A DNA stretch of 64,000 bases from Urechis unicinctus (Eukaryota; Annelida; Polychaeta; Xenopneusta; Urechidae). Under the pieces are notes generated by a model. It had not been told where the DNA came from. It worked only from the letters and a program-made list of their open reading frames with translations, and made no database searches. The position numbers were made by a program, and so were the translations under genes. Below, piece by piece: positions 8,886-62,362 of this stretch (position 1 is its first letter; the number at the start of each line of letters is the position of its first letter). The stretch covers positions 24,674,061 through 24,738,060 of the forward strand of contig CM067344.1 in the NCBI GenBank assembly GCA_034190875.2, given 5' to 3'.

Positions 8886-10237
8886 TAACGTGTGTCCGAA
8901 TCCATCCTAGCTCGCCACTGGTAACCGATTGACGAATGTGATATTTCTTGACATCCTGGAGACCAATTGTCACTGTGTGTGAAGCTACACCGATTCCTCA
9001 TCATATATGCGTATTTTACTGAACCATAAAAATCCGCCTCTTAGTTGTACATCGCAATGCAATCAAGTTATCGCGTGTCAGGTCATAGGAAGTATGTATT
9101 TGGTGTTCAGCAACACATGCAAACGCTGGAGGCAATATTGTTGTGCCTTCTTAAACAACTTGCAGTTACAGTGAAAACGCAGAATGCATTAATTCAAAAC
9201 AGCAATGTGAGATTATTCACAGATCATTAAAGCTTAGCGACGACGTAGTATCGCGGTCGGATAATCGGTTTACGGTACCAGACTGAGGTATATGAGTAGA
9301 ACAGCTCTACAGCGACTTTTTTTGCATGGTAGGTTCGTGTCAGATGTAGTCCATCCATACTGCTGGACGATCTAGTGGCAAGTGGCTTTGCGTTTTGAGT
9401 ATGTTTGTTCCAGACGACCTATCGTTTTCAGTCAGCATTTAATTATGCAAAAATAACGGAAATGTATGCATGAATATACATTAATATGTGGAAGCTGCAC
9501 AATGGCACTGTTCACCTTTAAGCTGATACATCATTCCATGCGGACATTTAATATAATCTGGTTCGAGCTAGGGTATAATCTACGGATATATCTGATGCTA
9601 AGCTTTCAAAAGTTTGGCCCGGCAGAGGATTTCCTTCCACAATGCCTTAAATGATGAGGCTGCAAGAAATGGAGAAAGCCGCATTGAATTTATCTTTGAC
9701 GTCACTTGTGTTTACTCGTTTTTAGCTTCCTAAGTAGTAAATTGGTAGCTTTGTGAAAGAACGACCACAAATATGACCTCCTGAACAGAATAGCTTACAA
9801 GAGAAGAAAATGTTCTCTTAAGGGAATATAAACTATAGTATGTAATTGGATTCCTTGAAAGTCTGCAGCACTGTACGTTTGGGAATAAGACCTAAGTGCA
9901 CTCTCCCGCTGAATCGGGCTCGCTTGCCCTAGCCATTGGTGCCGGACAAAAGAATACTTAAAATTCACATTTGCACTGGAACGGGATGGGTACGCATTGC
10001 GCAACAAAACGTGGTGTGAATGGATATGAAAAACGCTATAACTTAATTGATGTCTAATATCGATTGCTCTGAAAAGCGAGGTAAATTGTACTCGAATTGT
10101 CACATGAGCTTTCACTCCTGTCATGCCTGAGCCTGCCATTCAACCAGTGCTAAATATAACTTTATTGTTGCTGCGCAAACAAATGTGTATAATATAGCTG
10201 GACATAAATTTATATATAAATATATCTACATATATAT

Positions 10238-10240
<3 letters not shown>
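8886..10240. repeat. ~1.35-kb segment present in Ia, absent from Ib
   Basis: In Ib the homologous flank runs directly into a long (TA)n tract at 55529. In Ia this 1.35 kb of ordinary sequence separates the same flank from the matching TA tract at ~10236. A deletion in Ib anchored in the TA tract is the simplest reading. No gene is recognised inside. Confidence 0.6.
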
Positions 10241-10316
<76 letters not shown>

Positions 10317-10385
10317 TATTTGTATAAAGATATGCATATGCATTATATACATGCAGATATATGTATATATATATATATATATATG

Positions 10386-10449
<64 letters not shown>

Positions 10450-10470
10450 TATATATATATATATATATAT
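10236..10470. repeat. (TA)n microsatellite, Ia
   Basis: Long alternating TA runs at 10241-10312 and ~10363-10470 are broken by short TACAGATATT-like and GC interruptions. The flank at 10471 matches the flank of the Ib tract (55529-55805), so the two tracts occupy equivalent positions. Frames of repeated Tyr-Ile here are artefacts. Confidence 0.95.
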
Positions 10471-10794
10471 TATCCAGCAGTACCTTTCGTTGGCGACTTG
10501 TTCACGGCTTTTAGAGAATACGGCTGCGGATTTATCGCTACGCGACCAGCATCATAAATTGCACTTAGGTAAGCCGAATAACAGGTCAGACGCCAATCTA
10601 GCGTGATGAGTTCAGGCGAGACATTCTTCTTGATGAGCGAAATGAGACAACCGCGGAATACAAATCACTGCTATACCAGTCAAATATGTGCTAGGCGACA
10701 TAAATGTGGCTAGAGAACACAATATAACACATGTAAACAAAATCTTATGTGACGTACAAGGTAAACACGTCAAATGAACCGTATATCATGTCAA

Positions 10795-14019: not shown

Positions 14020-14375
<356 letters not shown>

Positions 14376-17599: not shown

Positions 17600-18200
17600 A
17601 TATAAATATTGACACTCCATCAGAGTATTGGAGTGAAGGTAAGAGCATGTATAGCATAGTGTAATCTTCTAAGCAGTATATTACGGTCATTTTGGTAGCC
17701 AGTAATGTTTAGTGGAGATGGCTGGACTGTTACCCAAGAGGTGATTGCGTACGGGATATTTGGCATACGAATTCGGATTCCGGAACTAGAAGTGATATTG
17801 TATGGCTGATTAAATGCTATGAGTCAAGCTTAGTAATGGAGGTTAACAACGCAGTATAGATTATTTGGTGTTCGTGTTATGGTGGACGATATGTGATGCC
17901 TTTAATTTGGGCTTGTATCAATACCCCAGCGTCTGCTGTTTGCTCAAAGGTCGCTCATTCTAGTTAGTGAACATAGCAGTTATTCTCTTCTGGCAACTGT
18001 GTACCTTGCCTACAACAAATTACGGGGATTTATGTAGTGTAATGGGGAAAATGGATACAGCTTTTTATTCTGTCTTTCCAAGATCTATCTGATCCGACTG
18101 CTGAAAAGCTAGTAATGTGTATAATTGGTGCCTTTCTCGACTGGCACATATAATCATTTACCCCTTTTTACTGACCGCTGGTTTTACGTAGTGGTCGACC
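17600..18200 (+). repeat. Block D, copy in IIa
   Basis: This is the partner of 13165-13612. It has no counterpart in IIb, where a TA tract and block E occupy the equivalent place. It carries additional pieces near 17765-17800 and 18030-18145 relative to the first copy. Confidence 0.8.
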
Positions 18201-18396
18201 ACAGCTAGCGTCACATGACAATGGGAAAAACATTATGAACATACACGAGCCAATGCCGTAGTATATTGTTACGTAAAAATGTCAGTGTATATGATGCAGC
18301 TCAGGTGGTAGCCTTTGTTCCGTAGCTGCATATATCCGCATATATTCTTATATGTATCGATTCTTTCCTACAAACTAATACATCCGCTGGACATAC

Positions 18397-18948
18397 TTGA
18401 TAATGCATAGCCCAGCAGAAATATTGTTTGTTGATGAGCACAGAATAGAGTGCTGTGGTCACGCGGCAATCCAAAGTGCAACGGCCCCATATAGGCCCAC
18501 ATTTCAGTGCTCAAGGAAGGTAAAACTCACTGAAAACCAATATTTCATAAAGAGGGACAATAATATTGTCTGCGATGTTTTCCCGATGACGTTCAATGCA
18601 TACACACACGGAGAATTATACGGCACTGTTAAACTAGCAAGCGTGTTTCTTTGTCCATTAGAAGGTACACAGATAACACAATGTTCGAGGCTCTTGCAGG
18701 GTTTCATTCATTGTGAAAATATGTCGCCAGCTGTCGGTAATCAACTGTGCGTGTTCGCCAGAGTTAATCCGAACAAACTTCGTCATAATAGAGAATCCGC
18801 CTATCTACTGGTGCCTGGCATGGACATTTATTGTCCTTATGTATTTTTAACTATAAGGCTTGTGTTAAACTGTCATCTTCGTGGTCCATTACCCTCGTTG
18901 TCAATACACTTTCATCGTACAACACCTATACCATTACAGGCTGAATAA
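18397..18948 (+). CDS. 183-codon open frame of unknown function (doubtful)
   Basis: This is the longest uninterrupted frame not made of simple repeats. It has seven cysteines, scattered hydrophobic stretches and no signal peptide, transmembrane helix or motif I can name. At this base composition a chance frame this long is uncommon: by a rough stop-codon estimate I expect about 0.1 in the window. However, the paralogous sequence in IIb (~35255-35765) is interrupted by several stops, by frameshifts, and by loss of ~80 bp around the counterpart of 18520-18600. Either IIb is a broken copy of something once coding, or the frame is accidental. The flanking sequence shows no other exon with confidence. 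Confidence 0.2.
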   Translation: MIMHSPAEILFVDEHRIECCGHAAIQSATAPYRPTFQCSRKVKLTENQYFIKRDNNIVCDVFPMTFNAYTHGELYGTVKLASVFLCPLEGTQITQCSRLLQGFIHCENMSPAVGNQLCVFARVNPNKLRHNRESAYLLVPGMDIYCPYVFLTIRLVLNCHLRGPLPSLSIHFHRTTPIPLQAE

Positions 18949-19045
18949 AATGACGATGTTGGTCAGTTACTGAACAGGGATAACCAAAACTGCTACATAT
19001 ATGCATAAGTAAATATTTACAAAAGTGCCAAATCAATTAAGCTTT

Positions 19046-19342
19046 TTATAGCACCATATATATACATACATCAATATTGTTGTTGAATGAATAACAAATG
19101 AAGCAATGGCTAAATCCGGATCTATCATGCATATCAATGGATTCTTTTGACATAGTCACGGCAATACAGCCAATACAAGCGAGTTCCGTGAAAACTAAAC
19201 CATAATTATTTGCACACATCAGAGAAGCACGCTTAAGATTCAAGCCCGCTAATGCCCAATGCAAGGCACTTGCTGCTGTTGCGCTCATGTGTGATGTCTT
19301 AATAAAACATAAAAAGTCATTTAATGCTTGAACGATGGGCAA
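19046..19342 (-). pseudogene. 98-codon minus-strand frame, partly kept in IIb
   Basis: The minus strand reads a 98-codon frame. A stretch around LMCANNYGL and ACIGCIAVTMSKESID aligns in frame with the minus strand of IIb (35948-36172). Similarity at protein level follows automatically from DNA similarity, so this is not proof of coding. It lies downstream of the exon-like blocks at 19.8-20.5 kb on the same strand and could be part of the same decayed gene. No family is recognised. Confidence 0.2.
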
Positions 19343-19769
19343 TATTCCTTCACTTATTTATCATCGGGATGACATGAAAACAATTGATCTAGAAAGCATT
19401 CGCTGAATTCATTGTTGCTGCTGTATTCAAAAAGTATCTTTTGACACCCTCTATAAGGTCTTCATAAAACACAAAATAGATATTCCTTGTTCATTGGAAA
19501 TAGCAGCAGATTAATTCATCAACAACCTTTGTCATGGTCATCCATGATAGCTTGTCCAAAATGATGTACAGATGGATTATAGAGATGAACAATCACAATA
19601 AATGTTAATAAATGTAAAACGCAGCTAAATGGAATATCTTAACAATGAGTCACAAGAACAAATAATTCTGCTTCCGATTGATTTTTTTCAGCAAAGCAAA
19701 TGATCATCTTCATTAGAAGCCCGAACATCTTGTTTTTTTGCGTAGCACTTGTATTACAATTAATAATGA

Positions 19770-20540
19770 CACAATATCTGGATGTTGCATTGTGTGGATG
19801 ACGTGGCGTGATGCAGATTGCGAATCCAGCACGTGGGCCCACCAAGCGTCCATGTGAACAAATCAATGCCACATCCTGTCTACATCCTTTTGTTCACTTG
19901 ACTTCATGTCTCCAAAAGCATGCATCGCAATGTCTTCATATATCCCCTCCCAGCTGGATAAAGCTCCCATTTATAACCACCAAGCGAATCGTGGTTTTGC
20001 TCCAACCGCATTCTTGATATGGAACTATGACGACAGGATGGGTCATGGATCTGCAACAGACAAGGAAAAGCAAATCTAATTGCAAAGAATACAGCTACTT
20101 GCAGACATTGCTAAGCGTTTGTAATCTTCAGCGCACGCTCATGTTGTAATGCTCACAAATGCGGTGCAAAGATGACGGTCAATGTTATTGGCTCGCAACA
20201 ACGCCCTGCATAGCCCGGCCACGTCATTGTAGTGAGCATTCGCACCAGGATCAAAGTTGTCATCAACGTCCGTACAGCTGTGGTCAGGTACTCGGTACCA
20301 GTAACGCAGGCGGTGCCCATCTATCCTGCACATAACACGTTGTAACTATATAAAAGCTTGTAATGGGCAACGGTAAATTTGTTTTGGATGCATTAAATTT
20401 GTTTTCAGTGACACATGTCGGTGGCTTGGTTAATTGTTACTTCATATCACGACAGGCCCAGGTCTCTGACTGGAACACCATGTCCGACTGTACAGGGTTG
20501 CTGCATGTCACCACGCGGTGAAATACCTCCGTCCTGTTGG
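19770..20540 (-). pseudogene. Exon-like block of an unidentified repeated family, copy 2 (in IIa)
   Basis: The reverse complement matches 7500-8100 and 54285-54900. On the minus strand an acceptor-like GTGCAG precedes 20325, from which a frame reads RLRYWYRVPDHSCTDVDD and DPGANAHYNDVAG. A second acceptor-like TGTTGCAG precedes 20050, from which the strand reads HPVVIVPYQECGWSKT and INGSFIQLGGD, with a stop replacing the conserved Leu-Trp before RHC. The segment between the two is diverged relative to duplication I. The function is unknown, and the frame is broken, so this copy would not be functional as read. Confidence 0.35.
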
Positions 20541-22800
20541 GGAATGGAGATTCTGAAACCCAAACACGAAACTCAATTAAGTTTCACTTATGAGATCTAG
20601 ATTCATGCAGCGACGGGATGATAAGCATTATGTAGGTGATAAACAAATCTTACAATTTCATTCACCACCTCGAAGTGCATAATAATTGAACTTATGACAT
20701 TGTTGCATGTTCAGCAGTAGTTTTAGTGCTAAAGCAGCGTCTCCGTTGCATGAGGATTAATCATATCCCAACTAATCATCTCTAACGTTCTGGCAAAAAC
20801 TTTAATTTAATATCAACTTCGTCAGAAAAATATTAATATCTACTTCGCCACAAAAATATTAATATCTAATTCGCCACAATCATACTGATCCCAAACTTAA
20901 GGCAACATTGCAATTCGTAATATCTCACAAACGAACCCTATATCACCGCACGGCACAATACTTCATAAATCAAACCAGTCACAGCTGCCACTTTTTTAAT
21001 GTCACGACCGACCCCAAATTAATGGACCTGTCCGAAGATACCCCAAACGTCCGTCAGCGAAGTAACATTACGCAGTTACAACGGATAGACTGACACGACA
21101 GCTTGTCTATGTGAGCTATGTCAAGTTGCTTACACATTATTGTACTCCACCCCATAAAATTCGATTCAACTAGTTGTTAACCCGCATTAAAAAGCATGCC
21201 TCAATATTACATATTTACAATAATAAAAAATATCTATGAATATTGATGCAAATTGACTTAGCCAAGCCACAAAACCCTTCTATTTGATGCATCCTTTTAC
21301 CCAAAGCTATGTTTGACAATCGAATCGATTTCACAGAATCTTCTTCAAGCTACTGATATGTGCAGACAAAACCTTCGAGCAACATGATGTTTTGCATAAC
21401 CACAATCGACCAGTTAAGATTATGTGCTAAGACAAGTGAATAACCTGAATGAATAATTCACATATGCAGCAAGAAAGTTACCAAGAACCTTATGAAAAAG
21501 ATGTCGCCATCGGTGACGCTACCTGTAATGTCCGTTATGAGCACGATGCATTTATAAACAACACAGGTAAACAACACAGGTAAACATATATTCACAGAAC
21601 CAGCATTGTGAGTTGCAGCAATATTTAGAATTCATCCGTACTAAAACCAATGGCTGCATATGATTATACAATACTTGAATTACCAATAACTGGTTATTGA
21701 AATGTGACTATTATAGCAGCACAACATCGTTAACGAAGTCTTATGGATCAATTACATAAGCTCCGAGTTGATCGATTATTGGTGACATACTATCGATAAG
21801 AAACTATTCACCCACATTTCCGACACCCCTTGAGTTTTGGTTCTATCGAATGATACGGTTGTAGTCCCACAAAACTCAACTTCTACATGGAAATGTTTGT
21901 ATGGTGGAAAGGCTATGAAGTAGACTGACAAGCTTTATCAAGGGTCTACGAACATCGCAGCCTCCTTCTACTGTTTACTTGCACGTGGCAACTTCGTGTG
22001 CTCTAGAAAATACCAACCTGTGTATCTCTTATGATCTGCATTAATCCCGCTCCACGCTGTTGCTAATAAAGCACTAACGGAGGATATCCAGAACCATGGT
22101 GGATTATCCATAATCGCTATCAAATGCTATCCACACGAGCTATCGTCCGCGTCGAGGAGATGGCTCCGATGTCAGTGTTGCTAACGCGTGTGATCAACTC
22201 TCACTATCCACAATGGTTCTATGGATATAAGTGCAGGGAAACAACACGAAATCCATGTGACCTCTCGGTTTTGTCGAGTAAACAGCATGTCACGGCAGAT
22301 TAATATTGGTTAAGATCCACACAAAATGTCTACATAAATGAAAACAGGGTCAGCTACTCCGAGGCGGATGTAACCTCTGCGTCCAGCAGCGAGCAGGCGA
22401 TATTAATGCGCCTGCCGACTGGAGAACGCCTTGCTTTTATGCAGCAGGACTTGGTCGGTAGCGCTGCGTACAGTAGCTATTGGCCACCAGAGAGAATAAG
22501 GCGCTATGTGCATCACTGGCTGACCTGCTACGCCAGCCTCCCTAGTCGGCCACTCTCAGGCTCAATGGTGTTCAGATGCATTATCAATCTTCGTAGTGAA
22601 CTGACGTCGCTAGTAAATTGATACACGATCGAAGGGGAAAGTGCGTCGCGTTTAAGCAGTCACAATTGTACAGCTCACAAAATATCAATCAGCAGTTTCG
22701 ATAGCCGACTGGGCGTAAGATTAGCCTCATTTTAGTCATCAGTTCATTAAGGCGATTAGGCACTGTGGTAAAGGGATAGGGGCCGTGCGCATGTGTGATA

Positions 22801-22938
22801 GTGCCAAGTTACATACGCTTGGTGAGCGCAGAGGGAATACAGTAGCCCCCGTGGGCAGGTAAATCTCACGTGCCAAGTTACATGCGCTTGGTGAGCGCAG
22901 AGGGAATACAGTAGCCCCCGTGGGCAGGTAAATCTCAC
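22801..22938 (+). repeat. 69-bp tandem duplication (2 units)
   Basis: Units 22801-22869 and 22870-22938 differ at a single base that I can see. IIb has only one unit (39603-39670). The second unit was therefore gained in IIa, or lost in IIb, after the large duplication. Confidence 0.9.
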
Positions 22939-23275
22939 GAGGCATCTGCGCCTTTGGTTCAGATGTTTGCTGCAAATCACATTGGTTTACGCGTTAACCT
23001 CTTAATACAAACAAAAACAAGTTGAAAGCTGTTAACAATAAACATGTTTGCTTAGATTACGCTGGGGAAAACATGGTTATGGATATCACATCGCATCACA
23101 AACCATGCACAATTTTGTATGCTGCTGATGCTGGCGTTGATCCACAGTAACGAAATGGTACATATTTCTCTGGTGTAAACCTATTGCAAACACAAACCAA
23201 GTATCAAACAGACATTTCGTCTTGTAGGACGTCTCAGTCATGGTGATCAATAGCTGAGGTCGTAGAACGAAAGGT

Positions 23276-23277
23276 AT
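23276..23277. repeat. Left AT target-site duplication
   Basis: The dinucleotide AT lies directly outside the left terminal inverted repeat and is repeated at 25034-25035. IIb has a single AT at 40008-40009 in otherwise matching flanks. Confidence 0.75.
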
Positions 23278-23294
23278 TGGGGGTTCTTAATATT
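23278..23294 (+). repeat. Left terminal inverted repeat
   Basis: It starts TGGGGGTTCT and matches the complement of 25017-25033 at 16 of 17 positions. Confidence 0.8.
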
Positions 23295-23949
23295 GCCTCA
23301 TGAATAATGCAGCGATATCGAGAACGAGGCCAGTAAGGGCAATCAGCAGCCCATAAGTCGCCGCACATGTAAACAACACGGTTTATTTCTCCAGTGGAAA
23401 GGCTTGTCAGTAACGGCTGTGTCATAAAGGGAAGATGCCACAGATCCCAGAAGAAAAATGAAGATGCCCACTCAATAGAGGTATGACATCTCGACCTGAA
23501 TACATGTCTTACTTGCATGGTAGTGGTCAAAATTTGTAAACATTTTTTATTGATCAAAACTGAAGATAAGGAGAAAAGATGCTGCTGTAGAATTGTTTTT
23601 GACAACAAATGGTATGCATGAAGGCATGATGATTCACACTTATATAATCCTCACTAATATTTCCTGATTATACAACCATTAAGATACTAATCTGGCATGC
23701 TTTTCCATTTCTTGCAGAGTTAAGAACATATCCACTGCATCGCCCCGATAGTGATAATAAAATCCACACCGTGTGGTTGGTAGTGCATGGATAAAATTAA
23801 GAGGTGAAATGTTTCAAAATATCTGCAAATTCATGCTATCTCTATGAATTAACTCAAAAACAAGTCAATCAATATGAAATCTTAGAAATAATCATTGAAT
23901 GCAATTGATATTCCCAATGATGGTTTTTTAACAGATCACATTATCTACA

Positions 23950-24414
23950 GAGGAGCCGACAGCAGTCCTAACAACCTCCTGTAGCTGTACTATAGGCCTT
24001 AGTGGTCAGTGTGGGCATATTGGTGATGTGCTCTACCAGATGGCGAAGTTCAAGTCCAGGGGATTCAAAGTCATTCCAGAAGATTTGGCCAAGACTTCAC
24101 TACCCCAGACCTAGCACCGGCTAAATCTGACTCCTAAGTCTGTAGTTTTAAGCCCAACCCTTAGACGACACAGAAACATAAACAACTCATCAATGAGTTG
24201 CATGCCTCTAGGCTTGCCTGCACATTGTAACATCTGTACTAGGAACATAGTACATACTGGTCATGTTCTTAGCCACCGGCTGTAGGTATTCAAAAAAAGC
24301 TACAAAGTCAAGATAGTTCCTGAACTATTTGAACCCAGTATAAAACCGTACCATGTCAGGATCATAGGAAAACCGACAAATACCGAACTTTTCGATCTGT
24401 AGTAGATCTTTCAT
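23950..24414 (-). pseudogene. DDE_Tnp_4-like transposase remnant
   Basis: The minus strand from 24414 reads a frame with IEKFGICRFSYDPDMVRFYTGF, interrupted by a stop, then NYLDFVAFFEYL. At 24122-24200 it reads a DELFMFLCRLRVGL segment followed by DLGVRFS. This resembles the conserved region upstream of the first catalytic Asp in harbinger/ISL2EU-type transposases, where a DE-F-hydrophobic-RLR-GL motif is followed by a DLA-RF motif. After a frameshift a weak FWNDF and a DCC sequence may mark the Trp motif and the first catalytic Asp region. Several stops and frame changes make it non-functional. Assignment rests on motif recognition by eye. Confidence 0.6.
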
Positions 24415-24721
24415 GGCCTGATTCTGTTTTTGTGATTCTTCATACTTGATTTGCATATCCTGTAGCAACTTCTCTAGCTGACTTCTTTGCTGTCACTCTC
24501 TTCCACAATCATCTGGATGTCAAGATCAGTACTGACAGGCAGGGGCTGGTCGTCCATCTGAAATCGTCCTTGGTGAATGGAGAGAACACACAGACGTGCT
24601 GTCTGATACCTGGAGTGCATATACATTATGAAAACAAGATAATAAATATGAAAAGTATCAACGTATTCCTTCTTATGTGCTTTACTTCCTTAAAACACAT
24701 GAAACTATTCAAATAGCTCAA

Positions 24722-24920
24722 GCCTTCTTATAATCGCTCGCAGTCACATGTTCTAGATCGTAGTTGTAAACAACTCGCCATGAACCCGTGTTCTGGACCT
24801 TGTTTTCGCCATATTTTGTGAAGCCAGGCTTTTCTTTTTAACTGTTCCATCACTCTTACAAAACGGAACGCAAAAATAACGATGGGTATTTGGTCGAGAC
24901 ACAGCGGCAGACGATGACAT
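24722..24920 (-). pseudogene. THAP-type zinc finger remnant
   Basis: The minus-strand frame begins with ATG at 24920 and reads RYFCVPFCKSDGTVKK, the spaced Cys pair and following pattern typical of a THAP domain start. After a frameshift the strand reads LEHVTASDYKK at about 24722-24755, which resembles the C-x-H-F-...-DY end of THAP domains with the last Cys lost. THAP domains are DNA-binding modules at the N-terminus of several animal transposases. This one is broken by at least one frameshift. Confidence 0.6.
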
Positions 24921-25016
24921 GTTTACAACTCGCTGCGGTCCGGCTAACGAGGTCGGAGGTCAACGGGGCTGCCCACCCATGGCCTCGTTCTGGCCGCGGA
25001 ATGTGCGGCATGCATA

Positions 25017-25033
25017 AATATTGAGAACCCCCA
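25017..25033 (-). repeat. Right terminal inverted repeat
   Basis: It ends AGAACCCCCA and is followed immediately by the AT at 25034-25035. Confidence 0.8.
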
Positions 25034-26145
25034 ATAGAGATGCCATGGCCTGATGCCGAAATTAGTCATGTTGAAGGCCAACAACGAATTGTGTATCATA
25101 TCATAAACACAACAACTAATGAGCGATGGCTGCATTGTACAAGAACGTAGCAGCATAAACAGAAAACCAGCTATGTAGGAATAGCATCACTGCACCGCGG
25201 AAGGCCGCTCTTCATTATTCATTCAAAGGGTGTTAAATTGTTACGTGTACCATAAAGTCCGTTCGCTTTGGAACCGATCACTTGGTTAATGTCCTCTGGG
25301 TATCAGTCTTGCTGTGTGGCTCTTTACTGACGTCACATTCGATTGCCGCAGTGCAATGTCGCCGAGCATGGGGAACCTAAATAACTGGAAAGAGAATCTT
25401 AATTAATATCCCCAAATGCAACCTGATAACACGTTAATCCTTGAATTATGTTTGCTATGCGATTGTAGACACGACCTATGGTGCATTGCGTGCATGCAGC
25501 ATCACGTCGTTAGCGGAATTAGCCGGAAGCCTCCCCCTACCTCCTATGTTTAATTCGGGCAGATGCATTGTCTATCCGTTTGTGGTATAGTCTTATGCGT
25601 TCAGAAACACATTCTGATATAAAATATCTCCTGCATCGATCAGTTCGTGGCATCGTTGCACTGGAAGCACCTTGTTGTCATTTTGCAATGCGATCGAGGT
25701 TAAGTAAGGTTGTGCTGATAGAGCACGGCTTTATCGTGTATGTCTCATACTGACGTAGCCGACCGGCGGTATCAACTAAGCTAAGAAATCTTGGAAAAAC
25801 ACTCGGAGATGATTCTGGCCACAGTCATTGAAGCAAGCTCTAGGAACCCTGTATGTCAGCGCAGTAATGCATAGAGCAATAACAAACAACATTAATGACG
25901 CAATTCCACTTTGGGCGGAAAATGAGGTAAATTTGTCAATTACCTAAATAGTGTTAGGGGTTATAATCGGCTGTTTGAGCGATTAGTACTTATTGCTTAT
26001 ACTGACATCTCTGCCATCGCGGGGTATGACGAAATACATTTTATCTTCTATCAAATGATTTAAGCAAACGTTCGTATTACTTGGAGTAATGCCAGCTCCC
26101 TTGAGGCGATTAAAGGCCCAAATGTAGCCATTTCCTGCAGATAAT

Positions 26146-27087
26146 TTAACATGGTAATGAAAGGAAATGGGCCGCAGCAGTTGTGATCAGTTCCCATTAG
26201 GAACCGGATATCTTAGGTACAGTATATCGCGAGGCTGGATATCGAAACGACCTTTATGGCATTGTGTAAGCGAAATGTAGAATGCAAATGGATTAATCAG
26301 AACAACATTAAGCTTGTTATTAGTGCATACATCACTTTAATAGGGAAAGTCAATTGCTTATTGATCCTGAATTGAAGCACAATATTTTATATTTTATAAC
26401 CCTGACGCCTGAATGCCCTATCATTTCATATGTGCTCGGGTCCTGAGCCCCACAAAACCGCCTTACGTTGTTTCCATTGTATAGTAATTTTCCTAAGGTA
26501 GCAGATCTTACAATATATTAATCAAAAAAGATCTTGGAATACACTTTGACAAACGACTCAAAATCGCACAAAATTTCAGTGGTCATTTGTTGAGATTGCA
26601 ATGACTCGCTGCATCTGTTAAGTATGGGGCTTTGATGGATACGATCGGAATCGCACAACCGTTCAACCGAAGTATTGGCATACAAGGCGTTTCATAAAAT
26701 CCGTTCAAAGCCCTTGGTCAAAATGAACCTATTATAGGCAAGCTATACAAAAAACATGCATGGTCAAGTTGCCAACGGTACATTGGCAAAGGTCGAGCCA
26801 ATAAGCGCTGCTATTAAGCAATATTCCACAAACAAATAAATACACAGGCAATTATCGCCAATGCATGGTGCAGCAATCTTGATCTTTAATCTCCTATAAG
26901 TAATTATTTCTGTAATTGGTTAATGCGACCTTGCTATGGCAAAGCAATCATTAATAAGCGAATGTGATCAACAAAATCCTATTCTATCTTGTGAATGCTC
27001 AAACCTTCCTCATTATGCACTCCAACTTTAACTTATTAATGCTATCACTGCCGGCATTCCCATGTACTGCATGTGCTTTGATGGTTT
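26146..27087. repeat. 942-bp segment present in IIa, absent from IIb
   Basis: IIb (41526) joins the flanks directly, sharing a single AT with both ends of the IIa segment. No terminal inverted repeats or transposase similarity were seen. The 2-bp AT could be a target duplication, but it equally fits microhomology at a deletion. Confidence 0.55.
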
Positions 27088-28743
27088 ATCATCCTATCTT
27101 TGATCAGCTTATCTCACAAAGCATGGTGTGGCCAACTACTGCCATACTGACTAGCTGCCATGACATAGATAGCATCGTAATTGCCTCTATGTCTTCTGCG
27201 CGAGTTTCCCGAGCAGAACATCCTCAATCGCGACCACACCCAGCAATGGATTATAACAATCCATGCTATGATTAACTGTCAGGTTACCACTATAGTGATG
27301 TCACACACGCCAGCTTTATATCATACCTGTTAAACCCGGCCGTTGTACGGCCTTTTTAGCAGTTTCAACGTTTCACCTGGACCTGCAATGGGGTTAATTA
27401 CGCGATAGACAGCATCCAAAGGGCATATGGCACGGTGTGGTTGACCTCAATGTTATCTGTTCAATACAATGTCAGGTAATAACACCCTCTTATTCATTGA
27501 TGACTATATTTGCTCCCAACAGTCAAGGTTGAACAACTATTGTAAGAAGACATTTGCTGATGCAATTAACTTACTTACTATCAACGACTAGACTTACAAA
27601 TGCATAATTTATCGCATGTACAATGTGCCCCATAACCACAACGTCTCGTGAGGATTGTGAATGCAGTGATATAAATATATGTACAGGCTGACATGACATA
27701 TCCACGAGGGCAATGTCTTTTATTTTGACCTTCCATATATACCTTAGTATAGGTAATGCGGTTGTTTGAGAGAAACATAAGGTGGTGATATAAATTTTGT
27801 AGATGCCAATACATATAAGGAATTAATCGGTGGGTGCGGTATATACGGCCTGTCTACATCTCTACAAAATGGTTGTCATTAACACTCAATCTATACGCTT
27901 CTAAATGATCAAACCGATGTTCACCAGCTAAATAGTATATGGCAGTCAATCATTGGTGATAGACTGGATTAAGTAACCTTGTGTACAGGAGCAGACTAAG
28001 CCACACCTCTTGATCAGCTTAGGTTATGCGATTGCTGTGCAGTGGAACATCATTCCTGTGCAATAGATATCCTAATGTGTGGTACATTTAACTATATAAC
28101 ACAAGCATTTGTCGCTGTGTTAAATGAAAACGCCCAATTCTGGTCTTTGTCTAATTGGTCGAAACCAAGCAACCTGTCAACCTGCCGGATGTGTTTATCA
28201 TTGTGTCATAGTTCGTATTCAACTGATCTCGTTAAAGCAAATGTTTCGCAATTTTTGAAGCAGCCTCGCCAATGCTTCTATTTCTATCGGTGTGGTCTGC
28301 CACTCAACGGTGCGTTCTGCCACTCAACGCTTTTTAGACTGGGATGTTTTAAGGGCACGGGATGACGGTCTGTCACGTAACGGATCGTTCGTTGCTGCTT
28401 TTCGCAGGAGCGACTACAAACTTGCATGGAGATGATCACCGAGGCAATGTTGAAATCTTGCATATAAGCCCACAGTAAATAGATATTCCGGGCATAAATG
28501 CAACAAATAATCGCAATACCAACTTACGCAGGTATATTTCTAGCCACTATTGTTTTGCAGTTTAAAGCTTTTGCTAAATGTCATTCGAAACAGGCTGCAT
28601 AATACTACCGAACATTAGTTGACAAGCACATATTTGCAACTCTTTCATCTCATATAATTACACGTCGCATATACCACGTTGCACATATAGTTATATATAT
28701 ATCAATCATATTTATGTATATACCAACTTGGCTGTATATAAAC

Positions 28744-30331: not shown

Positions 30332-32654
30332 CACAGATGTGAATATATATATAGGACACAATGGTAAAGAGTGCTGAACAAAGAGAGAGAATGACTATCC
30401 ATTGCATACCGTTCTAAGGGCGCGCAAGGCAATTAGTTGACAACACAGGTAGCCGGAGAGCAAATTGGAGGTTGCTCTGACATCCACCATTCCAGCATTA
30501 CTCCCGGAAGAGTTATGAAGCAATAGCTACGTCTTTTGGAGACATGTCATTCAAAGAAAGTTTGGGGCTTATTAACTTTCTCTCAACGACAAGAGAATAA
30601 CGTGACTGTGATTGATGTGGATCATTGTGATTCTGAGACAGTGAGACTCAAGCGACGGCACAAAACTCTCATCCCTGCCGCATATAATGGGAAATGAAAA
30701 TAGAAACAAAACCTGCAATTTCTGAGCGGATGCAACATTGGAAAGTGTTCATGGTTCTTGAATTACTTTTTTCAGAGCAGCATGAGGGTAACGTAGGCTA
30801 CACATACTATTACGAGGAAGAATGAAGATATAAATTTAATAGTAGAATTATCACATCCGTTCCACTTCGATGCAGTCAACTATAAGGTGTATATTCGAAA
30901 GTTTGTTTGACATGTTATTCTTAGTTGCATCAGACGTTAAGTAGGTATTTAAGCAGAGATCATCAAAATTATGCAATAGCCAAAACACCTGATTGCCTAC
31001 TGGGTTCAACAATGTTTCCAAAACATCAAGCCCGATCACTGACCCTGGCTATTGTTATGTGATACACGGTGAATACAGGAGGGGTTGTGGCGAAAATACG
31101 CTCAGGAAGCTATTCATATATCCTTTTTTGAAAACAAAGATTGTGATTTTTTTTTCTTTCATCTAATAACTATCGATGGTTTTGTGTACCTAATAACATG
31201 AAAGTACTTGCAAGAACAATTGCGGCCAATTTAACCGTTAATATGAACCACCTTTTGTCGAATGCATCGTTATCCGATACATTTTGAGGCTTTATAAGGG
31301 CATCAAGCAAATGCTGCTATTCTTTGATGTAGTGACAAAAGTGTGTTGCAGTGCTGACTGCATCACTGAGCACCTCTGGTGTAACATACACCAAACTCCA
31401 CTCTGATAACAGAGAAATTCTAGTCACCGCATTTATCAACTGTGTTTGAATCAGTTAATAAATGTTGTTCAATATTAGCAGCGCGGGTCGTGCACTTTAC
31501 CCTTTTAGTGTTTTAGAGGCTACTGCTGTATTTAAATAAAATATTGATGGTCAGCAATTGTTGTGTGAAAAGATACAAATGAGTATAACATACACTTGTC
31601 TTACATAAAGTACACTTCCGTCACTAAGAATTTTAATTGATTAAAACTGATGAAAATGCCCAGAATCATGCGGCGACGCTTACGTGACACATGTAATTGA
31701 AAACACTGCTCGTCTGCTGTCAGGGATCGGATAAACAGGAGTAGAACATAATGGTACTAATAATAGGTCCCTCTTGCATTCACCATCATACGACAGCATG
31801 ATGGGAAAGCAGAATTGTGCTCTTGCATATAAATTAGATTGCACCGAATGTACGGAATGCACAATATGACTTTGTCCATTAATTGCAGCCCCTCAGTAGT
31901 AAGATAGGGGCATATTGTATGCTCTATTCTTTGACAGCCAACACAGAGTTCGACCGAGATAACTGCAATGAAGCAAGAATTATTTTCTCTGTCCATTAAA
32001 ATTTGCTGTAATGCAATTGTTGTTTACCATGCCATCATAGTTTTTGCTGAGTGGTACTGTGACATGGACTTTTGAAGAGCATTCAGTTATGTAGAACAAA
32101 GGATAGGTGCATTTCGAAATGTCAAGCAAAAGATGTAAGACATCTTTTTTGGCCACGTTTTGCCCGAACTATTATATCATTTTGAGATAGTTGTTAAGTT
32201 TCAGAATCATTGCTTACTAACAGGAGCTCGGTTTAAAAAAATGTCCTTATATATATATATCAATAAGAAAACCTATGTAATTTTATTATCGTCCACAGTA
32301 AGTTTGCTTAAGACAGTTCCGAATTTAATGATTGAATAACGCCTCGCATTTTATTGTGTTCGTGTGATTGTACCCCCAAAACGAATAATGTTTCCAATAA
32401 ATGTTTGTCATGTGAGTACATAAGCCCTTACATGTATCGTGGGAGAATATGGCAGTTGCACTTGAGATAAAGGGGGTAGAGTACTTTGATACCTTTTAAG
32501 GTTTATGCCAACATATTTTTACTTATTATATCTCTGCATCTGTAGATACCGAATGTAGATGTCTTTTCAGTGAGAAGACATCTATTCTGTCGGATTGCAT
32601 GAATCGTGAAAATATTGTTATGATGAAAGAAACAATTATCGAACATTCCACAGA

Positions 32655-33242
<588 letters not shown>

Positions 33243-34177: not shown

Positions 34178-34365
<188 letters not shown>

Positions 34366-40006: not shown

Positions 40007-40010
40007 TATA
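40007..40010. other. Empty insertion site of the ISL2EU-like element
   Basis: The sequence TATA here, in flanks that match both sides of the IIa element, carries one AT (40008-40009) where IIa has AT, the element and AT. This is the unoccupied target. Confidence 0.75.
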
Positions 40011-40444
40011 GAGATGCCATGGCCTGATGCCGAAATGAGTCGTGTTGAAGGCCAACAACGAATTGTGTATCATAGCATAAACACAACAACTAATGAGCGA
40101 TGGCTGCATTGTACAAGAACGTAGCAGCATCAACAGAAAACCAATGACACAGGAATAGCATCACTGCACCATGGAAGGCTGCTCTTCATTCTTCATGCAA
40201 GGGGTGTTTAATTGTTACGTGTACCATAAAGTCCGTTCGCTTTGGAGCCAGGTCGCTTTGTTAATGTCCTCTGGGTATCAGTCTTGTTGTGTGGCTCTTT
40301 ACTGACGTCACATTTGATTGCCGCAGTGCAATGTCACCGAGCATGGGGAACCTAAACAACTGGAAAGAGAATCTTAATTCACATCTCCAAATGCAACCTG
40401 TTAACACGTTAATCCTTGAATTATGTTTGCTTTGCGATTGTACA

Positions 40445-40849
40445 CTTGAGAAACGGATTGAAAGGCAACACAGAAAAGATGAGCAGGAGTGTTAATAACT
40501 GTAATTTTTTTGAATACCGCCTTTTTGTTACAATTTTTGTATGCATTAAAGAAAGAAGGTTTAAGGATTAAAAAATTTGCTTGTTAGCAAATCGTTAGAG
40601 CCGTAGCTTTATCACCATTTACCACACTAATAGACGATGACTTATTTGTTCGATTGCCCCAGCTTTCTTACAACAAAGTAAACCAAATGTCTTTTTGTCG
40701 AAACAAATCACATTCCATAGGTTTATGTACTATTCACCAGGACGATATAGCCACGATATATTCACAATCGAACGGCTGCTTTTGAAGCTAAAAGCGACGT
40801 TGCATTGTCACACATCCATTTCCATGTAATGCGCTCGTAAATACTCAAG
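40445..40849. mobile_element. Possible ~405-bp MITE-like insertion in IIb
   Basis: IIb has ~410 bp here that IIa lacks (IIa equivalent near 25467). The segment starts CTTGAG and ends CTCAAG, and is bordered by ACA on both sides (40442-40444 and 40850-40852). IIa has a single ACA at the equivalent point. That is the layout of a short inverted-repeat element with a 3-bp target duplication. The inverted repeat is only 6 bp and the flanks contain other small differences, so chance is possible. No coding content is seen. Confidence 0.35.

Positions 40850-55525: not shown

Positions 55526-55805
<280 letters not shown>

Positions 55806-60591: not shown

Positions 60592-62362
<1,771 letters not shown>

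Follow-up and report, generated by a model that had tools for sequence, protein, structure and literature searches.

A short transposon, very probably a recent ISL2EU-type insertion, with empty target sites in a locally duplicated region of Urechis unicinctus

The window, i.e., the whole 64,000-nucleotide stretch of DNA analysed here, contains a 1756-bp DNA transposon at positions 23278–25033 in copy IIa of a local duplication. Almost certainly, this element was inserted recently and represents a non-autonomous form, with internal deletions, of a cut-and-paste family of the ISL2EU type within the PHIS superfamily. The 1756-bp segment, its 17-bp terminal inverted repeats (TIRs; TGGGGGTTCTTAATATT and TGGGGGTTCTCAATATT, matching at 16 of 17 positions), the 12-bp subterminal inverted pair and the flanking AT duplications had been described in an earlier sequence-only reading, and all of them were confirmed. 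The features of the element and of the corresponding unoccupied site were as follows (window coordinates, with the strand where there is one):

23276–23277: left target-site duplication AT (a single AT is present in copy IIb at 40008–40009)
23278–23294, plus strand: left TIR TGGGGGTTCTTAATATT (the end pattern occurs 252 times in the genome, against 0 for the reversed control)
23321–23332, plus strand: left 12-bp subterminal inverted repeat AGAACGAGGCCA, a putative transposase-binding site
23380/23381: junction of a 312-bp deletion, absent from 20 aligned sister copies (the same 312 bp are kept in the long member L074)
23515/23516: junction of a 66-bp deletion, with the 6-bp direct repeat CATGGT at its ends
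23932–24114, plus strand: relic of the N-terminal part of the YqaJ protein (second protein) with a stop at its end, resembling by eye the N-terminal region of the frame in the long member L073
24120/24121 (element 843/844): family-level deletion junction, at which 1784 bp of the 4.3-kb element with the YqaJ and DDE_Tnp_4 domains are gone (element positions 1192–2975 of L074 are absent)
24120–24197, minus strand: HTH_Tnp_4 relic of the transposase, in the open frame 24111–24260 (PF13613, E 8.6e-5, residues 22–47 of the 49-aa frame)
24325–24492, minus strand: transposase segment with a coiled-coil-like stretch and the FGICRFSYDPDMVRFYTGF motif (motif identical in L073, near-identical in L074)
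24552–24554: family-level junction, at which a 409-bp intron-like stretch with a TA microsatellite is missing compared to the 4.3-kb element
24570–24610 (edges approximate), minus strand: remnant of the exon for the C-terminal part of THAP (VCSLHF in the family)
24837/24838: point at which 41 bp of the THAP exon were lost, a deletion absent from 20 aligned sister copies
24838–24920 (edges approximate), minus strand: relic of the THAP N-terminal exon (CVPFCKSDG)
24980–24991, minus strand: right 12-bp subterminal inverted repeat
25017–25033, minus strand: right TIR, TGGGGGTTCTCAATATT when read inward
25034–25035: right target-site duplication AT
40008–40009: unoccupied target in copy IIb, a single AT with no footprint

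The 12-bp subterminal pair was shown to be perfect, starting 44 bp (left) and 43 bp (right) from the ends of the element. An inverted-end score of 16/17 was obtained for 2 out of 200,000 random 1756-bp spans of the window, and scores of 13 to 15 for none; these two spans most probably represent the element, as its exact start was expected in about three draws. No further copies of the element were found within the window at E ≤ 0.01, and Rfam and tRNA scans of the window gave no matches. Long TA-rich self-complementary microsatellites were observed in the window at 10200–10473, 14020–14370, 32650–33240, 34178–34363, 55528–55805, and 60606–60764, and a TA microsatellite was also present inside the intron-like stretch of longer copies of the transposon.

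Searching the host genome (1.19 Gb, 926 contigs) with the end pattern TGGGGGTTCTYAATATT gave 252 matches (132 + 120), while the reversed pattern used as a control gave none. Among the 100 matches listed of these 252, 68 formed pairs, giving 34 elements (the window copy is one of these) with lengths of 237–4487 bp, and 32 were unpaired; within the same 100, all paired elements (34/34) had one T-form and one C-form end. A DNA search, in which 40 of 410 first-look candidates were scored, showed many near-full-length copies of 93–97% identity on many contigs. AT was present on both sides of 29 of the 39 sister copies fetched, i.e., 29 of the 35 with both ends recognisable (18/20 among the first 20 copies). 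A recognisable end was missing in four of the ten sister copies not flanked by AT/AT (L029, L030, L038, and L045), and both ends were present without a clean AT/AT in L014, L017, L033, L040, L041, and L046 (6/35). At 12 loci taken from a protein search, eight had both ends within the stretch and six of these eight were flanked by AT/AT, the two misses again being L041 and L046. One flank was shared by L019 and L021, and likewise by L085–L087, one of which was reversed; these are therefore copied sites and not separate insertions. The existence of other genomic copies with the same ends, which had been proposed as a check on the original description, was thus borne out. No relatives of the element were found in the genome_contigs, viral_contigs and phages collections.

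Both ends started with TGGGGG in the window copy and in 20/20 sister copies; the 252 end matches are not countable for this trait, as the search pattern itself begins with TGGGGG. At 18 clean sites (the window copy and the first 20 sister copies, minus L014, L017, and L021), the base before AT was T in seven cases, C in six, A in four and G in one, and the base after AT was T in nine, A in six, C in two and G in one, giving an AATT target at three of the 18 sites. Thirty-four copies of 2.1–2.26 kb differed from their own consensus by 0.18–2.26%, the closest pair being four positions apart. FYTGFK followed by a stop was common to 22 of these 34 full-size copies, the pattern not being found in the other 12.

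Within the element, the earlier reading had reported both THAP and DDE_Tnp_4 as recognisable in decayed form. This held for THAP with the help of the family only; DDE_Tnp_4 is unrecognisable in the window copy because the internal deletion removed it. The HTH_Tnp_4 match in a 49-aa minus frame, one of 10 pieces submitted to Pfam, had an E of 8.6e-5 and 22.5 bits, which is below the curated Pfam cut-off of 27, and the same frame scanned within longer stretches gave E values of 0.002 and 0.013. It was the sole match in a six-frame Pfam scan of 18200–28100 at E ≤ 0.1, and nothing was found by Pfam on the plus frames of the element. Neither THAP nor DDE_Tnp_4 was matched in the minus frames of the window copy at Pfam E limits of 5 and 10, at which HMMER filters remove most matches above 0.1, and a PDB search for THAP in the window copy gave chance matches only. 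The decayed look of THAP in this copy is due to the 41-bp deletion in the domain. The YqaJ-protein relic at 23932–24114, when scanned alone, had no Pfam match. Two candidate assignments were rejected: a minus frame at about 23960–24120, considered as the start of the DDE domain, is antisense of the N-terminal stretch of the YqaJ protein, and "LEHVTASDY", considered as the C-terminus of THAP, gave way to the VCSLHF exon as the true one. None of the 312-, 66-, and 41-bp deletions was present in 20 aligned sister copies, and the CATGGT repeat at the edges of the 66-bp deletion suggests a repair-linked loss.

At the level of the family, the coding content was much clearer. The protein search, with 150 of 542 candidates scored, gave relatives whose longest open frames reach 432 aa. 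Two long members, L074 (4330 bp) and L073 (4318 bp), were found to have TIRs as in the window copy and to be flanked by AT/AT. Both matched the whole DDE_Tnp_4 profile of Pfam (142.8 bits in L074, 143.1 bits in L073) and both contained HTH_Tnp_4 (34.6 bits in each), and YqaJ was matched with 74.2 bits in L074 in the frame at 1688–2896, the transposase and YqaJ genes of the long members being convergent. THAP reached 29.3 bits in a consensus exon (cut-off 23.9); reading two exons jointly, those of the consensus and L031, gave a match to the whole profile with 58.0 bits. Sequences of the predicted THAP exons were seen in L073 and L074 as well, upstream of HTH and DDE_Tnp_4. Thus, profile matches to the two domains named earlier were obtained: for THAP in the family consensus, and for DDE_Tnp_4 in a 4.3-kb member that shares the ends of the window copy.

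Pairwise comparison of L073 and L074 showed 65 mismatches in 4382 alignment columns, 116 of these columns being gaps, and 7 of 356 codons differed in the transposase exons, four of the differences being silent and three not. The YqaJ frame was split in two in L073, and in L074 the N-terminal stretch of the protein was in another frame than the domain; therefore, completeness is not established for any single copy. DDE_Tnp_4 was very abundant in the host genome, with 2335 first-look candidates, of which 150 were scored and all listed matches were over the Pfam cut-off; many had long open frames, and nine were clustered at C7:32.239–32.290 Mb. Besides, at the ISL2EU-like locus L053 (C13:7394394), a DDE_Tnp_4 match of 159.5 bits was located close to an ORF whose single product combines YqaJ (58.1 bits) with a PHD finger (36.8 bits). 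A DDE_Tnp_4 match located 3.6 kb from copy L011 was not similar to the family.

Compared to L074, the 2176-bp consensus of the family lacked two stretches: one of 1784 bp, in which L074 has its DDE_Tnp_4 and YqaJ domains, and an intron-like one of 409 bp that includes the TA microsatellite. The latter stretch was retained in L029–L031. Other derivatives were also bounded by AT: six of about 2.5–2.6 kb with both ends (AT/AT in 6/6), and five of 1.05–1.1 kb, 1.8 kb, and 237 bp (AT/AT in 5/5, three representing one copied site). The smallest of these, L084 (C4:4338182–4338418), was a 237-bp MITE-like derivative consisting of the first 18 bp and the last approximately 220 bp of the family. On this comparison, the window copy derives from the long form by deletion and is non-autonomous; it presumably moved in trans, the reading frames having already been broken while the family multiplied. 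The locus thereby connects a non-autonomous short form with its long coding relatives within one genome.

The "two-copy" duplication (window 18211–46828) was found to be part of a local array. In this array, on contig C3 at 24.22–24.87 Mb, the 421-bp target region occurs at least 10 times across about 650 kb, in both orientations, i.e., in IIa, IIb and eight further unbroken paralogs, one of which was matched only from base 46 of the 421; this count omits two partial matches, one ending before the site and one of 73% over about 120 bp elsewhere on C3. All nine paralogs other than IIa were empty, one having AC for AT, and paralogs L076 and L078 were identical across the aligned stretch. When the flanks in IIa were joined and compared with IIb, 838 bp were aligned with 53 substitutions (6.3%) and two 1-bp gaps, neither of them at the junction. 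The junction in IIb is not a deletion scar, since there is no gap there and no flanking base was removed. The exact unoccupied site with a single AT that had been noted in IIb was thus upheld, and extended by eight more unbroken paralogs that are empty.

The empty site, GT-AT-AG, leaves a 2-bp AT as the sole fitting assignment, and the comparison of the filled site with nine empty paralogs fixes the duplication accordingly. This bears on whether the element could belong to another PHIS group, i.e., PIF/Harbinger (TWA duplication), Pangu (ANT), Spy (no duplication) or PHISTA (TA), which is very unlikely. Related DDE transposases are common to all of these groups, and the ends can also be read as ATTGGGGG...CCCCCAAT, the filled site alone permitting ANT or TA; the empty site permits the 2-bp AT only, however, and the transposase is accompanied by THAP exons and a YqaJ partner and not by a Myb/SANT protein.

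The window copy showed seven substitutions compared to L009, the closest of 34 copies compared. It differed from a first consensus of 20 copies at 10 out of 1756 positions, seven of which were private, and from a second consensus of 34 copies at 20 positions, that consensus leaning to another subgroup. Between IIa and its nearest empty paralog, L079, the difference was 1.7% across about 400 bp, and the insertion is therefore younger than the split between these two. On these substitution counts, the insertion is placed well after the IIa/IIb duplication; the earlier proposal that it postdates the duplication agrees with the seven substitutions to the closest relative as against 6.3% between the IIa and IIb flanks. 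It is highly improbable that the element was already present before the duplication and left IIb by precise excision. Such an excision would also leave IIb without a footprint, but an older element would be expected to have about 3% divergence on its own branch instead of seven private substitutions in 1756 bp, and the nine empty paralogs would require several precise losses. The nine empty paralogs together with the few substitutions thus exclude precise loss from IIb in practice. A microhomology deletion in IIb, comparable to the IIa/IIb indels without inverted ends (26146–27087, 942 bp; 40443–40847, 405 bp), has a negligible probability as the origin of the indel in view of the TIRs at the exact edges of the indel, the same edges on copies genome-wide, and nine empty paralogs with near-identical flanks. 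The indels at 26146–27087 and 40443–40847 themselves look like ordinary deletions or insertions.

A recent insertion of an ISL2EU-type derivative would be explained as follows. Transposases of the DDE_Tnp_4 type work by cut and paste, and the THAP domain is a zinc finger that binds DNA. A transposase from the long relatives would recognise the shared ends through the TIR and possibly also through the 12-bp subterminal repeat; THAP (or THAP and HTH) would be the putative DNA-binding part on one or the other. It would excise the short element and cut the target at AT with a 2-nt stagger, and gap filling at the staggered cut would give the AT duplication; YqaJ may have an accessory role. The short form would have arisen from the 4.3-kb element through loss of the 1784-bp (DDE and YqaJ domains) and 409-bp (intron-like) stretches, and would have been amplified in trans, with its frames broken beforehand. 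The window copy would have lost 312, 66, and 41 bp more, and would have been inserted in IIa after IIa parted from its nearest paralog. Short deletion derivatives moved in trans are also found in PIF/Harbinger.

It is possible, at somewhat less than an even chance, that the family is currently or was very recently active, with a relaxed N|AT|N target, TGGGGG ends and autonomous members still in the genome. If so, it would offer a natural setting for direct tests of ISL2EU transposition and of what the YqaJ nuclease does. The family is young and has near-identical copies and open transposase frames, and it is therefore a fair candidate for testing ISL2EU movement and the purpose of YqaJ. Among the papers searched, a single one, on Spy, combined ISL2EU with the term "transposition assay".

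PHIS groups are defined by the composition of their target-site duplication, and the shared or usual traits of ISL2EU, as given in the group descriptions of Han et al. (2015; PMC4482050), include an A|AT|T target and TIRs that usually begin with GG. The family described here was found to share with ISL2EU the 2-bp AT duplication, a transposase with DDE_Tnp_4 and HTH in the long members and THAP in consensus exons, and a YqaJ domain in a second ORF (PMC4482050). The early assignment of the element to an ISL2EU-like kind with an AT target is supported by these traits. Its TIR length is within the 6–259 bp given for ISL2EU, and its long form is 4.3 kb compared to a published mean of about 4.84 kb (PMC4482050). 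In contrast to the A|AT|T context of ISL2EU, AATT was found at only three of 18 sites, and unlike the usual GG start, the TIRs begin with TGGGGG (PMC4482050). The PIF/Harbinger type, with its 3-bp TWA duplication and Myb-like second protein (PMC4482050, PMC9179366), differs in both respects, as the empty site gives AT and the second protein is YqaJ, not a Myb/SANT-like one. The 3-bp ANT duplication of Pangu does not agree with the empty site either, which has only AT.

Teleost ISL2EU elements (PMC9179366) are similar in having two ORFs and in encoding a YqaJ exonuclease alongside a DDE transposase that contains HTH or THAP; they are from another host, and the likeness is one of description. 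The domain order THAP-HTH_Tnp_4-DDE_Tnp_4 is also that of genes in Holothuria glaberrima (preprint PMC13228809), which are described there as host THAP genes, in a description that does not include ends or duplications. Spy, a sister clade of ISL2EU with a DDE transposase of the same superfamily (PMC11304231), differs in making no duplication and in its preference for AAATTT, neither of which was found here. By the published group traits, the elements are taken as a new family of the ISL2EU kind, which may already be catalogued under the name of the host, and they show that the published ISL2EU preferences for target and ends do not hold in every case.
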